This document shows positions 1-4,087 of a stretch of DNA of 64,000 nucleotides, piece after piece. This DNA comes from Kineosporia succinea (GTDB lineage: Bacteria; Actinomycetota; Actinomycetes; Actinomycetales; Kineosporiaceae). Under the pieces are notes generated by a model, which was not told the DNA's origin, ran no database searches, and was given only the letters and a program-made list of their open reading frames with translations. Where the stretch lies: contig NZ_JAUSQZ010000001.1 of assembly GCF_030811555.1 (NCBI RefSeq), forward strand, positions 2,170,001 through 2,234,000, given 5' to 3'. Each line of letters starts with the position of its first letter. Within the stretch, counting starts at the first letter, position 1. Position numbers and translations under genes: made by a program.

Positions 1-74
1 CGCCGGCCAAGTACGCCGAGATGGAGGTGCGCTCACTCACCGGGGCCGGGGCCGAGAAGGCCGTGGATCACTAG
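1..74 (+). CDS. C-terminal end of an unidentified protein (partial)
   Basis: The frame beginning at base 3 is open from the window edge to a TAG at 72-74. It encodes a 23-residue tail that includes AKYAEMEVRSLTGAG and ends EKAVDH. Third positions are mostly G/C, as in real genes here. The stop lies 4 bp from the stop of the convergent GntR gene, so the two are tail to tail. The piece is too short to assign a family. Confidence 0.55.
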   Translation, partial: PAKYAEMEVRSLTGAGAEKAVDH

Positions 75-78
75 GAAC

Positions 79-822
79 TCATCCGAAACGCCAGGTGTGC
101 GTGACCTCGGAGCGGCGGCGGTCGGTGACGATGCGCAGTCGTTCGTCGAGGATCGTGGCGGTGTCCACCACGTAGGCCCGGCCGGTTCCGTCGAAGGTCG
201 TCCGGCGCATCACCAGCGCCGGGCGACCTTGCGCCGTCTGCCCCAGGGTGGCCAGGCCGGCGTCGAGAGCCTCGGCGGTGAGCGCCTCTTCGGCTCGCTC
301 GGGGGTGGTGCCGGTGGCCTCGGCGATCGCCGCGTACAACGGGGAGCCCCGGAAGTCGATCTCCGCCACCGCATCGGCCCAGGGCTGCGGCACCCACGAG
401 ACCTGGTGCAGCAGAGCGACTCCGCGCACCGACCGGAGTCGCTCGAGCCGCAGACCGGGTGACCCCGCGTCCACCCCCAGCTCCACCGCCACCTCGCGGG
501 GCAGCTTCTGCCGGTCGCGGCCGAGCACCTCGGTGCGCAGCGGCACGCCCTGGGCGTTCAGCTCGTCGGCCAGGCTGCGCAGGTTGGCCTGGTCGTGCGT
601 GACCACGGGCGGAACCACGAACGTGCCGCGACCGGGCCTCTGTTCGATCAGCCCCTCGCTCTCCACGAGCTGCAGGGCCGCCCGGAGCGTCATCAGCGTG
701 ACGTCGTACTCCTCGCTCAGCACCCGCTGCGAGGGCAGAGCCCCGTCCGCCCCGAAGTCCCCGGCCCGGACCCGCCCGGCGATCTCGGCGGCGATACGGC
801 GGTACTTGGGTTCGGCGGCCAC
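79..822 (-). CDS. GntR-family (HutC/UTRA type) transcriptional regulator
   Basis: A 247-residue DNA-binding repressor. Residues 1-70 form the winged helix-turn-helix typical of GntR proteins (KYRRIAAEIAGRVRAGDF, then LPSQRVLSEEYDVT and the wing GLIEQRPGRGTFV). Residues about 90-235 look like a UTRA ligand-binding domain (VRGVALLHQVSWVP, then RPALVMRRTTFDGTGRAYV). It follows trpA on the same strand after a 48-bp gap, so it is probably the third gene of the trpB-trpA transcript. Two perfect palindromes matching the GntR consensus GT-N2-TA-N2-AC lie in the trpB promoter, so autorepression of the whole unit is likely. The effector is unknown. The family call is firm; the target is inferred. Confidence 0.9.
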   Translation of the reverse strand: MAAEPKYRRIAAEIAGRVRAGDFGADGALPSQRVLSEEYDVTLMTLRAALQLVESEGLIEQRPGRGTFVVPPVVTHDQANLRSLADELNAQGVPLRTEVLGRDRQKLPREVAVELGVDAGSPGLRLERLRSVRGVALLHQVSWVPQPWADAVAEIDFRGSPLYAAIAEATGTTPERAEEALTAEALDAGLATLGQTAQGRPALVMRRTTFDGTGRAYVVDTATILDERLRIVTDRRRSEVTHTWRFG

Positions 823-870
823 GTCCTCACCCTAGAGCCTGTCCCGAGGTCGCAGGCGAGGGGCCGGAGG

Positions 871-1695
871 TCACCCCAGCGCGAGCCGCACCCGCGCGAC
901 CAGCCCGGCCACCGCGTCCACACTTTCGCCCTCCAGCACCCGCCGCATCAGGGCGGCCCCCATCACCACCCCGTCGGCGTGCTGCGCCGCCTCGGCCGCG
1001 GCGTCCGGCCCGGAGATCCCGAATCCCAGCAGCACCGGGCGATCGGTGACGCCCCGGACGCGGGCGGCCAGGTCCGCGGCCCGCCCGCCCAGCCCGGCCC
1101 GCTCCCCGGTCGTGCCCATCACCGTGGTCGCGTAGACGAACCCGCTGCCCAGAGCCGCGATCCGGGCGATGCGCCGGTCCGGGGTGGACGGCGCGACCAG
1201 AAGCACCGTCTCGACCGCGTGCGCCCGGGCGGCCTCGACCAGGGGCGGGGCCTCGTCGAGCGGCGTGTCCACCGGGATCAGCCCGCCGACGCCGGCCTCG
1301 GCCAGCGCGGCGCAGAACGCGTTCGCGCCCCGCCGCCGGATCAGGTTGCTGTAGGTCATCACCACGAGCGGCACGTCGACGTCGAGTCCCGCCACCGTCT
1401 CGAGCGCGCTCGCGCTGGTCGTGCCCCGTTCCAGCGCCCGCCGCGAGGCCTGCTGGATGGTGACGCCCTCGAGCATCGGGTCGGAGAACGGCAGGCCGAT
1501 CTCGATCGCGTCGGCGCCGGCCGCGGCGAAACCCTCGACCAGACGGGCCCAGTCGGGCGTGATCCCGGCGGTGACGTAGGGCACCACGAGTTTGCGGCCC
1601 TGGGAACGCCGCTCGCGCAGCCGGGTCTCCAACGAGGGTCCCCCTGGACCTTCGGCCTGGGGAGGCGACCCCGGCGTGGACGTCGCGACGGTCAT
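871..1695 (-). CDS. trpA: Tryptophan synthase alpha subunit, divergent
   Basis: A 274-residue TIM barrel that should cleave indole-3-glycerol phosphate and pass indole to TrpB. The start ATG overlaps the trpB stop (ATGA), showing translational coupling. The N-terminal catalytic Glu is present in AIEIGLPFSDP. The usual loop-2 motif, [AM]DGP[VT]IQ, reads LEGVTIQ instead: the catalytic Asp (Asp60 of the Salmonella enzyme) is Glu and the following Pro is Val. Loop 6 keeps a TG pair (MGTTGERAG). The length is normal. No other trp genes are adjacent, so this looks like a second, specialised trpBA pair rather than the housekeeping operon. Altered or reduced catalysis is possible. Confidence 0.9.
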   Translation of the reverse strand: MTVATSTPGSPPQAEGPGGPSLETRLRERRSQGRKLVVPYVTAGITPDWARLVEGFAAAGADAIEIGLPFSDPMLEGVTIQQASRRALERGTTSASALETVAGLDVDVPLVVMTYSNLIRRRGANAFCAALAEAGVGGLIPVDTPLDEAPPLVEAARAHAVETVLLVAPSTPDRRIARIAALGSGFVYATTVMGTTGERAGLGGRAADLAARVRGVTDRPVLLGFGISGPDAAAEAAQHADGVVMGAALMRRVLEGESVDAVAGLVARVRLALG

Positions 1696-2867
1696 TTCAG
1701 CAGCTCCCTCACCTGGGCGGCGTCCTTGTCGCCGCGGCCGGACAGCGTCACCAGAACCGTTGAACCGGCGGGCAGCTCGTCGGTGCCGGCGGCCCGCAGC
1801 ACCCAGGCCAGGGCGTGACAGCTCTCCAGCGCCCCCAGAATGCCCTCGGTGCGGGCCAGTTTCACCAGCGCCGCGAGCACCTCCGCGTCGGTGGCGGAGA
1901 CGTAGGTGGCCCGGCCCGACTCGGCCAGATGGGCGTGCTCCGGGCCGACGCCCGGGTAGTCCAGCCCGGCCGAGACCGAGTGCGCCTCGAGCACCTGGCC
2001 GTCGTCGTCCTGCAGCAGGTAGGACTCGAAACCGTGCAGGATGCCCGGGCTTCCGTGGCCGATCGCGGCACCCCCGGCCGCCTCCACGCCGACCAGCCGC
2101 GCGGAGGTGCCGACGAAGCCGGCGAAGGTTCCCGCCGCATTGGAACCGCCGCCCACACAGGCGACCACCACGTCCGGAATTCCCGACGGCAGCAGCCCCG
2201 CGCACTGACCGCGCGCCTCCTCGCCGATGACCCGCTGGAACTCGCGCACCATCCACGGGTACGGATGCGGCCCCATCACGGAACCCAGGCAGTAATGGGC
2301 GGTCTCGGACAGCCCGACCCAGTGCCGGAAGGCCTCGCCGGTGGCGTCGGCGAGCGTCTGGCTGCCGGTGGTGACGGGCACCACCTTCGCGCCGAGGAGC
2401 TCCATCCGGAACACGTTCAGCTCCTGACGCTCCACGTCCTTGGCACCCATGAACACGGTGACGTCCATGCCGAGCAGCGCACCGACGGTGGCCGTGGCCA
2501 CGCCGTGCTGCCCCGCGCCGGTCTCGGCGAGCAGCGTGGTGCGCCCCATGCGCCGGGCCAGAAGTGCCTGCCCCAGAACATTGTTGATCTTGTGCGAGCC
2601 GGTGTGGGCCAGGTCTTCGCGCTTCAGCAGAACGGTGACGCCGAGCTCGGCGGACAACCGGGTGGCGGGCGTGACCGGGGTCGGACGGCCGGCGTAGAGA
2701 CGGAGGGTGCGGTCGAGTTCGGCCCGGAAACCGGGATCCGCCCAGGCTTCCCGGAACTCGCGCTCGAGGGTGCGACAGGCCGGGATCAGGGCCTCGGGCA
2801 CGTAACGGCCGCCGAAAGCGCCGAACCGGCCGTCGGCGGCGGGTTCCGCCATGGTGGGTGCGGTCAT
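1692..2867 (-). CDS. trpB: Tryptophan synthase beta subunit
   Basis: A PLP enzyme that condenses indole with serine. The PLP lysine lies in HTGSHKINNVLGQ (about residue 93), ETGAGQHGVATAT is intact, the phosphate-binding GGGSN is present, and the C-terminal substrate region reads LDYPGVGPEHAHL. Several normally fixed positions differ: HTGSHKINNV for HTGAHKINNA, and GALESCHALA for PALESxHA. I chose ATG 2867 because a -10 box (TACGGT) ends 6 nt upstream, implying a leaderless mRNA. An in-frame GTG at 2873 is the alternative. It heads the trpB-trpA-gntR unit. The function call is secure; the physiological role is not. Confidence 0.92.
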   Translation of the reverse strand: MTAPTMAEPAADGRFGAFGGRYVPEALIPACRTLEREFREAWADPGFRAELDRTLRLYAGRPTPVTPATRLSAELGVTVLLKREDLAHTGSHKINNVLGQALLARRMGRTTLLAETGAGQHGVATATVGALLGMDVTVFMGAKDVERQELNVFRMELLGAKVVPVTTGSQTLADATGEAFRHWVGLSETAHYCLGSVMGPHPYPWMVREFQRVIGEEARGQCAGLLPSGIPDVVVACVGGGSNAAGTFAGFVGTSARLVGVEAAGGAAIGHGSPGILHGFESYLLQDDDGQVLEAHSVSAGLDYPGVGPEHAHLAESGRATYVSATDAEVLAALVKLARTEGILGALESCHALAWVLRAAGTDELPAGSTVLVTLSGRGDKDAAQVRELLK

Positions 2868-2873
2868 GGGCAC

Positions 2874-2902
2874 ACCGTATGAGTTCTAGAACTGTGAGTC
2901 AA
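2874..2902 (-). promoter_or_regulatory. trpBA-gntR promoter (leaderless)
   Basis: Read on the minus strand: -35 TTGACT (2902-2897), exactly 17 nt of spacer, -10 TACGGT (2879-2874), then 6 nt to ATG 2867. This is a near-consensus sigma-70 promoter whose transcript would start at the start codon. One operator palindrome fills most of the spacer. Confidence 0.75.
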
Positions 2903-2915
2903 GAGTTCTAGAACT
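2882..2915. promoter_or_regulatory. Tandem GntR-type operators
   Basis: Two identical perfect 12-bp palindromes, AGTTCTAGAACT, lie at 2882-2893 and 2904-2915, with centres 22 bp (about two helical turns) apart. Each contains GTTCTAGAAC, an exact match to the GntR consensus GT-Nx-TA-Nx-AC. One sits inside the promoter spacer and the other just upstream of the -35. The likely binder is the GntR protein encoded at the end of the same operon. Confidence 0.8.
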
Positions 2916-3060
2916 GCTGGATCCACCTGGCGGCCGGGTGAGGCAAAAGCCCTGCCCGCTTGGGCCGTTCGAGGTAAACGACGGAAACTTCTCTGCCCTG
3001 GCTCAAGTTGAGGTCAGCAGAGCCGTACCCGATAGCAAGGAAGTCTCCAAGGCCCAGCGA

Positions 3061-3459
3061 ATGGCGGTGAGCACCATGAGCACGATGACCATCTCCCCGG
3101 TCGCGAACCAGCACCTGACCGCGAGCGGATACGCACCCGTTCTGCAGCACAACTCCCGAACCGATCTCCGTGCTCTGGTGAGGTCCGACGGAACGCCCGA
3201 CACCGCCCGCCAGATCGCCGGGGCCGCGATGGCCCGCACCGGCGCCGAGGCCGCGTTCTCGGTGCCCGCGACCGCCACCGAGAACAACATGCGGCGTTTC
3301 GAGGAGCGCTCGACCACGGGCAACTCGACCGCCTCGGGCAACGCCAAGGGTGCCCGCGGCTCGAGCACCCTGGAGCCCGACGCCGGGGCGAGCACCGCGC
3401 CGGAGCAGGCCCGCGCGGACCTGCCCCAGCTCGGGGCCGTGCTGGACGTCTACCTCTAG
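3061..3459 (+). CDS. Hypothetical protein, about 132 aa
   Basis: I do not recognise a family. Third codon positions are almost all G/C from 3061 onward, supporting a real gene. Upstream in-frame codons back to 2938 look less coding, so I place the start at ATG 3061; ATG 3076 is possible. The protein has no signal peptide or membrane segment. Its middle is Ala-rich (ARQIAGAAMARTGAEAAF) and its C-terminal half is low-complexity (Thr/Ser/Ala/Gly). It is divergent from trpB, so the operators at 2882-2915 could also affect it, though the distance (about 145 bp) makes that uncertain. It converges on the sigma-factor gene. Confidence 0.6.
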   Translation: MAVSTMSTMTISPVANQHLTASGYAPVLQHNSRTDLRALVRSDGTPDTARQIAGAAMARTGAEAAFSVPATATENNMRRFEERSTTGNSTASGNAKGARGSSTLEPDAGASTAPEQARADLPQLGAVLDVYL

Positions 3460-3496
3460 AAGGCCGTCCCGGCCTGTAGGGCCGTCCCGCGGGACG

Positions 3497-4087
3497 TCAC
3501 CGCACCAGCCGGCGGCGCACTTCCTGCCGGGCCTGGTTCAGCCGGGACTTCACGGTTCCCAGCGGCAGGTTCAGACGCCGGGCGATCTCCTCGTACTCCA
3601 GATCGGCGAGATCGCGGTAGACGAAGGGCAGCACCAGCTGGGGGTGCGAACTCTCCAGCGACTCCAGGGCTTCGAGCAGGTCGATGCGTGACCCGGCGAT
3701 CACACTGGTGCGCCGGGGGTCGGGGCGGATCTGCTCCTGCACGGTGAGTGGCTGCTCAGACGCTCTGCGTTTCAGCTCGCGGTAGGTCTGCCGGGCGGCG
3801 TTCGTCACCACCACGTACAACCAGGTGCGGAACGAGCTGCGGCCCTCGAAGCTGCTGATGCGCCGGGCCACCTGGAGCAGGGCGTCCTGCGCGGCCTCCT
3901 CGGCGTCTTCCCGATGGGGCAGCATCTTTCCGGTCCGGCGCAGTACTTCGGGCTGGATCAGGGCGAGCAACTCGTTCAGAGCGGCGTCATCACCGGTGGC
4001 GGCGGCCCGCGCCAACATATCGATCCGGTCACTACCGGCCTGACGGGCGCCCTGAGGGGCAGCGGGCTCTTCGGGTACGTCGGTCAT
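3497..4087 (-). CDS. ECF-type RNA polymerase sigma factor
   Basis: A 196-residue group-4 sigma factor. The region 2 helix is visible (HREDAEEAAQDALLQVARRI, then SSFRTWLYVVVTNAARQTYR), followed by region 4 with its helix-turn-helix (DLEYEEIARRLNLPLGTVKS). It has an N-terminal extension of about 30 residues. No anti-sigma factor is adjacent. Instead the gene is divergent from a transmembrane Ser/Thr kinase, with 17 bp between start codons. ECF groups controlled by a partner kinase are known, and this arrangement fits. The acidic region 2.2 is retained, unlike ECF43 proteins. The start ATG 4087 has no clear ribosome site but has a -10-like CATCAT 6 nt upstream. Confidence 0.88.
   Translation of the reverse strand: MTDVPEEPAAPQGARQAGSDRIDMLARAAATGDDAALNELLALIQPEVLRRTGKMLPHREDAEEAAQDALLQVARRISSFEGRSSFRTWLYVVVTNAARQTYRELKRRASEQPLTVQEQIRPDPRRTSVIAGSRIDLLEALESLESSHPQLVLPFVYRDLADLEYEEIARRLNLPLGTVKSRLNQARQEVRRRLVR

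Follow-up and report, generated by a model that had tools for sequence, protein, structure and literature searches.

The closest described gene arrangement is the trpRBA unit of Chlamydia trachomatis, in which, according to PMC7755916, a trpB–trpA pair and its own repressor gene are joined in one unit. The chlamydial regulator is TrpR and depends on tryptophan, whereas the regulator of the Kineosporia locus described here is of the GntR/UTRA type, and the likeness is one of layout only. Furthermore, set against the chlamydial case, the Kineosporia genome differs in the presence of a second trpC–trpB–trpA run. At the level of the regulator, the nearest systems are NagR (YvoA) and DasR with its dre sites (consensus ACTGGTCTAGACCAGT), which share with the Kineosporia module the GntR and UTRA domain pair, a guanine at operator position −5 and an arginine at the place of Arg38 of NagR. 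In contrast to NagR and DasR, the module has a thymine at −4 and a leucine (methionine in two relatives) at the place of Arg48. The targets of NagR and DasR are amino-sugar genes, while the linked target of the Kineosporia GntR is one trpBA pair. A GntR regulator of trpBA was not found among the matches listed in the open-access literature, and no open-access paper was found that combines trpBA, GntR and an operator. The present locus connects one regulator, its candidate operator and a single target operon in no fewer than three actinobacterial families, and suggests a residue-level reason for the DNA preference of the regulator.

Architecture of the trpB–trpA–gntR locus

The window, that is, the whole analysed stretch of 64,000 nucleotides from Kineosporia succinea, contains the following features at this locus:

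79–822, minus strand: gntR, HutC-type GntR regulator (Pfam PF00392 and PF07702), proposed repressor of trpBA
871–1695, minus strand: trpA, tryptophan synthase alpha (TIGR00262, 197 bits)
1692–2867, minus strand: trpB, tryptophan synthase beta of a second (module) clade (TIGR00263, 530 bits)
2874–2879, minus strand: −10-like TACGGT, six bases ahead of the ATG (2867)
2882–2893, no strand assigned: candidate operator 1, AGTTCTAGAACT, in the −35/−10 spacer
2897–2902, minus strand: −35-like TTGACT, from the sequence and alignment columns
2904–2915, no strand assigned: candidate operator 2, AGTTCTAGAACT, one base upstream of the −35

Profile matches confirm the gene order proposed earlier from the sequence alone, a trpBA pair followed by a GntR regulator. 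On the minus strand, trpB (2867–1692) and trpA (1695–871) overlap by 4 bases, and 48 bases lie between the end of trpA (871) and gntR (822–79). Both tryptophan synthase matches, TIGR00263 for TrpB and TIGR00262 for TrpA, are above the equivalog cut-off. The gntR product consists of an N-terminal GntR winged helix-turn-helix (PF00392, 58.5 bits) and a C-terminal UTRA domain (PF07702, 83 bits), both above cut-off, and its nearest solved chains, by PDB sequence matches, are 2ra5, NagR/YvoA and DasR. None of the 21 named HutC-type NCBIfam regulator families (PhnR, HutC, PhnF and others) is above cut-off for this protein; the best is PhnR, with 105.3 bits against a cut-off of 296.75. We class the protein as HutC-type on its predicted domains only.

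The trpB promoter and its candidate operators

Read along the minus strand, the promoter consists of the site at 2915–2904, one base, TTGACT, a 17-base gap that holds the site at 2893–2882, TACGGT, six bases and the ATG. The two candidate operators are both exact copies of AGTTCTAGAACT with a centre-to-centre distance of 22 bp; the sequence-only reading had described two identical palindromes, one in the spacer and one abutting the −35, and every element of that description matches the sequence. Allowing up to two mismatches, AGTTCTAGAACT is found 3 times in the window, compared with a mean of 0.20 in shuffled sequences. The 8.07-Mb genome contains 6 copies of the core GTTCTAGAAC; two belong to the trpB promoter, and only these two have the 12-base form AGTTCTAGAACT. 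Another of the six (L008:5996–6005) is located about 33 bases before the start of a gene that reads, by eye, as GroEL-like.

A sigma-70 consensus scan of positions 1–3500 called no promoter, the −10 matching the consensus at 3/6 bases. The assignment was retained because the −35/−10 block is conserved across Kineosporia species. For this comparison, the genus is represented by the window's genome (G000) and five others (G001–G005), which include K. rhizophila JCM 9960 (G001), K. mesophila JCM 16902 (G002) and K. babensis JCM 31032 (G004). A TANNNT −10 block is in register in five Kineosporia genomes, one of which, G001, is off by one base (by hand). Operators 1 and 2 each keep their place in five of six Kineosporia genomes; in G001 an outer base of operator 1 is changed, and operator 2 has one core change in both G001 and G004. 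In an ungapped comparison of five Kineosporia promoters, mean identity is 0.26–0.32 between −150 and −51, which is the background level, 0.75–0.92 between −50 and −11, and 0.60 between −10 and −1. With the −10-like block only six bases before the ATG, the trpB transcript is likely leaderless.

As given in PMC4494728, HutC operators have the form NyGTMTAKACNy, and most members, not all, have GT and AC separated by 4 nt. The earlier description of the palindromes as exact matches to the GntR consensus holds for the general form NyGTNxACNy and fails for the strict HutC form, GTTCTAGAAC having 6 nt from GT to AC. The strict HutC consensus was dropped as proof, the sites not fitting NyGTMTAKACNy (PMC4494728).

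The module recurs outside Kineosporia

In a comparison of the window TrpB with 148 genomes of the class, four copies outside Kineosporia were found at 71–73% identity, and each of the genomes concerned also encodes another TrpB. All four have a 40–44% identical GntR alongside and two sites upstream of trpB, which are degenerate in G093. A GntR profile of ten rows, searched against 394 genomes of the class, matched 25 of them at E ≤ 1e-35, with 26 matches in all, 12 of which are strong (E < 1e-90). Five of the strong matches (G000, G072, G093, G109 and G182) were already rows of the profile, and seven (G202, G211, G305, G321, G351, G359 and G412) were new to it. The surroundings were viewed for all matches save the weak one in G416.

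A second trpBA adjoins gntR in all 12 strong genomes, and sites are present upstream of trpB in 12/12: ten close pairs, one exact single site (G202) and one degenerate pair 53 bp apart (G093). Among the close pairs, the second site of G359 is one mismatch off. Across genomes, the centres of the candidate sites are 22, 20, 17 or 53 bp apart. At ten of the 11 weak GntR loci (nine genomes), neither a match to TrpA or TrpB nor a pair of sites was found within 11–14 kb; a single one-mismatch site is present at four of the ten. Of the intermediate matches, the one in G401 has a trpB 3.4 kb from the GntR gene and no site. In G248 and G162 (L221:4670–4990 and L222:7315–7570), also intermediate, the GntR gene is divergent from a different TrpB, 53–54% identical, and the two loci share a GACTTCTAGAAGAC palindrome between the genes.

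Ten of the eleven relatives outside Kineosporia fall into one family (f35), which is probably Streptosporangiaceae because the GntR of G072 matches a place in Nonomuraea gerenzanensis at 88% identity. Between the trpA stop and the aligned gntR start there are 8–44 bases in eight of these ten; in G321 and G202 the same rough measure gives negative values. The GntR of G093 forms a long branch in the tree, and the sites of this genome are poor. The module, its recurrence, its predicted sites and the link between these sites and trpBA are features of the sequences themselves.

The paired pattern TAGAACN{6,16}GTTMTAGAAC is present in 9 of the 394 genomes, at one place in each and always upstream of a module trpB. 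The three strong genomes in which it is not present are G359, G202 and G093. Chance matches of such patterns do occur, since the reversed control pattern has matches in 8 of the 394 genomes. In each of the 17 module promoters (six from Kineosporia, eleven from other genomes), the upstream 300 bp contain one site or more with no more than one mismatch. Of 30,882 pieces of 300 bases taken at random from the same loci (two of these loci contain the dispersed repeats), 160 have at least one site and 79 of these at least two. A scan of GTDB r220, which may omit near relatives of the window, gave 9 records with the Kineosporia-type pair, three of them Kineosporia at trpB. The six others (Bacteroidota, Shewanella) have no GntR or Trp match to the queries and were taken as chance.

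Residues predicted to face the operator

In the NagR–DNA complex, as reported in PMC4333415, Arg38 reads G−5 and Arg48 reads G−4. By alignment, the window GntR has Arg33 at the place of Arg38 and Leu43 at the place of Arg48. Among 64 half-sites from 32 sites, G is found at −5 in 61 and T at −4 in 62, counts that describe the motif and are no test of it because the sites were picked by likeness (up to 2 mismatches). The candidate operator lacks exactly the guanine whose reading arginine is absent. At the Arg48 place, G321 and G202 have methionine. The Arg38 place is occupied by alanine in G093, whose sites are the most degenerate, and in G248 and G162 the Arg38 and Arg48 places hold Gln and Val and the GACTTCTAGAAGAC palindrome has C at −5. 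These differences fit the proposed reading, on rows that are related and few. The window GntR was not filed as a NagR/DasR orthologue, in view of Leu43 at the Arg48 place and T−4 instead of G−4 in the operator.

An additional tryptophan synthase

The window's genome, 8.07 Mb in one contig, contains a single match for IGPS (trpC), which adjoins a second TrpB (8057079–8058221, about 60% identical to the window TrpB), followed by a TrpA match. The gene starts around this run read, by eye, like hisI, trpE, small genes and lgt. The window trpBA is an extra copy, in addition to the trpC–trpB–trpA run near 8.06 Mb. The sequence-only reading had noted a trpBA pair with no other trp genes; in the genome, trpC, trpB and trpA are found together. 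The 8.06-Mb run encodes the same two subunits as the window trpBA and differs in that its TrpB belongs to another clade and that none of the six genomic GTTCTAGAAC copies is located there.

In a TrpB tree of 30 rows, the window copy belongs to a module clade of 17 rows with support 100/98, and the canonical rows fall outside this clade. The motifs HTGSHKIN, ETGAGQHG and LSGRGDKD are intact in all 17 module copies. In TrpA, one catalytic acid is kept, while the other is Glu in five of the six Kineosporia module copies, including that of the window, and Asp in canonical TrpA, in G003 and in 11 other module copies. We take this position to be Asp60 of the enteric enzyme, and likewise assume the catalytic roles of these residues.

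The module within Kineosporia

A gntR match at 80–82% identity is present in all five other Kineosporia genomes, and trpBA with two sites 22 bp apart is found at the equivalent of the window locus in five of six, the window's included. In G001 and G004, gntR is about 6 kb from trpA and on the opposite strand. These two genomes, K. rhizophila and K. babensis, have an inversion, relative to trpBA, of the segment that runs from a histidine-kinase-like gene to gntR (L076:2589–9325 and L077:2736–9464; names by eye).

G003 retains gntR (80–81% identical), and trpBA is missing from the fetched locus. A TrpB 75% identical to that of the window is present on another contig of G003; in the tree it is separate from the remaining Kineosporia rows, which group with G093 at moderate support (94/92). 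No exact GTTCTAGAAC exists in the G003 genome, and only a half-degenerate site was found, at this distant and differently branching trpBA; the sole 16-base site of the genome (up to 2 mismatches) is the one upstream of that trpB. In the same 16-base scan, matches away from trpB are 1/1 in G001, 2/3 in G004 and 1/3 in G000.

A CTAATCTG block adjoins the gntR start in five of the six Kineosporia genomes, the window's genome being the exception, and a palindrome of the trpB type is found at the gntR start in none of the six. Because of this block and the lack of a palindrome there, gntR probably has its own start in most Kineosporia. The proposal of a self-regulated unit is in keeping with eight other genomes, where gntR follows trpA by 8–44 bases, and fails in the two sister species in which the genes are uncoupled. 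The term self-regulated operon is rejected for the genus as a whole and fits the other genomes better; control of gntR through the trpB sites is likely only where gntR stands behind trpA in a shared operon.

In all six Kineosporia genomes, gntR constantly has next to it a convergent block whose genes read, by eye, like a symporter operon. A CRP-like sequence, GTGACCCGSCTCACAG, is conserved upstream of the DUF485/ActP-like genes (names by eye) in four Kineosporia genomes (L011 upstream of 8081, with counterparts in L046, L048 and L076).

Proposed control of trpBA

The GntR encoded at 79–822 very probably acts on trpBA through the predicted sites of the trpB promoter. Control of trpBA by the neighbouring GntR, as put forward in the sequence-only reading, is favoured by the linkage of GntR, trpBA and sites in 12 of 12 genomes with a close homologue among 394; the self-regulatory part of that proposal stands only partly, and cooperativity, also put forward there, would have to operate at centre spacings of 22, 20, 17 or 53 bp. 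This uneven spacing counts against control by GntR, as do the departure of the sites from the strict HutC form, the matches away from trpB in the 16-base scan, the symporter-like neighbour of gntR throughout Kineosporia, the half-degenerate site of G003, a genome that retains gntR, and the Ala, poor sites and long branch of G093. In the trpB–trpA–gntR module, an additional pair of tryptophan synthase genes would be controlled by a HutC-type GntR repressor of its own. Presumably dimeric, this regulator would bind palindromes with the half-site ASWGTTMT upstream of trpB, of which there are usually two. Since the sites are located in the spacer and next to the −35, bound GntR should shut out RNA polymerase from the probably leaderless Kineosporia promoter. 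The overlap of the sites with the core promoter, worked out for Kineosporia only, makes repression likely rather than activation. A small molecule bound at the UTRA domain should release GntR from the DNA. Our best guess for this effector, a tentative one, is indole or a related precursor; otherwise tryptophan or another compound may serve. From these sequence patterns, we infer binding by the window GntR, repression, a ligand and a physiological role. The module would then provide a spare tryptophan synthase with a switch separate from that of the main pathway, and one may ask which signal calls for it.

An improbable alternative is that a different DNA-binding protein, encoded elsewhere, reads the palindromes while gntR controls the neighbouring symporter-like genes. 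The constancy of the convergent block beside gntR in 6/6 Kineosporia, also where trpBA is gone (G003) or separated by inversion (G001 and G004), speaks for this explanation. However, outside Kineosporia, gntR, a second trpBA and the sites occur together in 11/11 genomes with a close homologue, and the symporter-like block was not seen, by eye, in the four of these genomes for which genes were listed. The 180 bp ahead of the genes for HK (3 genomes), SSS (6 genomes) and DUF485 (4 usable genomes) contain no GT..TA..AC palindrome, and the symporter-like operon was rejected as the main GntR target on the lack of such a palindrome in the upstream stretches inspected. The residue–base fit between the window GntR and NagR also counts against another binder.

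Attenuation is known for actinobacterial trp genes, and the two palindromes of the trpB promoter are able to pair with each other, as would be needed if they acted as RNA, in an attenuator-like hairpin of a trpB leader, rather than as protein sites. We regard this as very unlikely, in that the −10-like block six bases before the ATG implies that the palindromes should not be transcribed. In eight relatives, moreover, the site copies are direct repeats of GTTATAGAAC (seven exact, one changed), for which perfect mutual pairing is impossible. The trpB upstream region has no Rfam match at gathering thresholds, and an attenuator or other RNA element was rejected on this result together with the direct-repeat sites of the relatives. 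Least probable of all is a chance or repeat-derived origin of functionless palindromes at trpB. The site pair does sit in many dispersed repeats in two sister genomes, but the pair at trpB is also present in repeat-free genomes and in other families, and the exact paired pattern, in 9 of 394 genomes, is found only at the module trpB promoter. GntR control through the trpB sites is the reading that we prefer.

Dispersed hairpin repeats carrying the site pair

Exact GTTCTAGAAC counts are 205 in K. mesophila and 188 in G005, compared with 6 in G000, 1 in G001, 0 in G003 and 2 in G004. A repeat arm, TGATCATGCAAAACCTCCCC (up to 2 mismatches, both strands summed), is found 296 times in K. mesophila, 228 times in G005, once in the window's genome, and not at all in G001, G003 and G004. 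From the site and arm counts, we estimate about 100 dispersed hairpins in each of the two genomes, located as follows:

K. mesophila repeats, L046:1737–1769, L051 and L080–L099: core often a GTTCTAGAAC pair with 23-bp spacing
G005 repeats, L048:3020–3052, L100–L107 and L126–L145: core often a GTTCTAGAAC pair with 23-bp spacing

The sequence-only reading had held that a palindrome widespread away from gntR genes would speak against it; such spread is absent from the window's genome and is met with in these repeats of K. mesophila and G005. Some repeats are empty, others have a single site, and an alternative arm contains CCTTCGGCCGGGAGGTGCCCCCACTCCCC.

An unselected 400-kb stretch of G005 has 16 GTTCTAGAAC copies, of which 14 form perfect pairs 23 bp apart. 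The stretch has 22 arm entries (up to 4 mismatches), 15 of them with both arms; four of these 15 cores are empty or almost empty, eight hold a pair (in one case with a mutated second site), one holds a single site and two are of other kinds. A scan by spacing only gave 7 perfect pairs, one pair with one mismatch and one with four, and six of the seven perfect pairs are intergenic according to a simple gene caller.

We compared 32 repeat pairs, 25 from stretches chosen for the site and 7 from the unselected 400-kb stretch. Their spacers are all different, and the central seven bases are on average 30% shared. In most, the spacer ends are T(C/G)T and A(C/G)A, which match the inner flanks of the trpB operators in G000, G002 and G005. 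The repeats are taken as holding the same candidate binding site, copied into the repeat. Hairpin pairing was rejected as the cause of the conserved repeat palindromes, since Watson–Crick pairing of the flanks in the 32 elements is not above expectation. The two variable flank pairs are matched in 4/32 (14.7 expected if independent) and 6/32 (13.0 expected), and the other four give 30 against 30.0, 22 against 23.4, 8 against 9.7 and 30 against 30.0. With pairing below or near expectation, we read the pairs as one element in two orientations.

The hairpins, mostly intergenic in the stretch examined, share with REP/MITE-like repeats the character of short inverted-repeat elements; they differ in that many of their cores hold the paired trpB operator with 23-bp spacing. 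It is conceivable, if rather doubtful, that in the K. mesophila lineage the trpBA operator pair was built into a dispersed hairpin, giving up to about 200 extra repressor sites, so that GntR would be a chromosome-wide binder, be held by a sponge, or be used for the spread of the repeat. Such a sponge would set the threshold for trpBA in this lineage. Repeat-borne site pairs in two species would also provide a natural experiment on how a genome tolerates or exploits a mass-copied repressor site. As a single strand, the whole repeat element folds very well (z −9.8 for one element), and the repeat arms may have a structural role.
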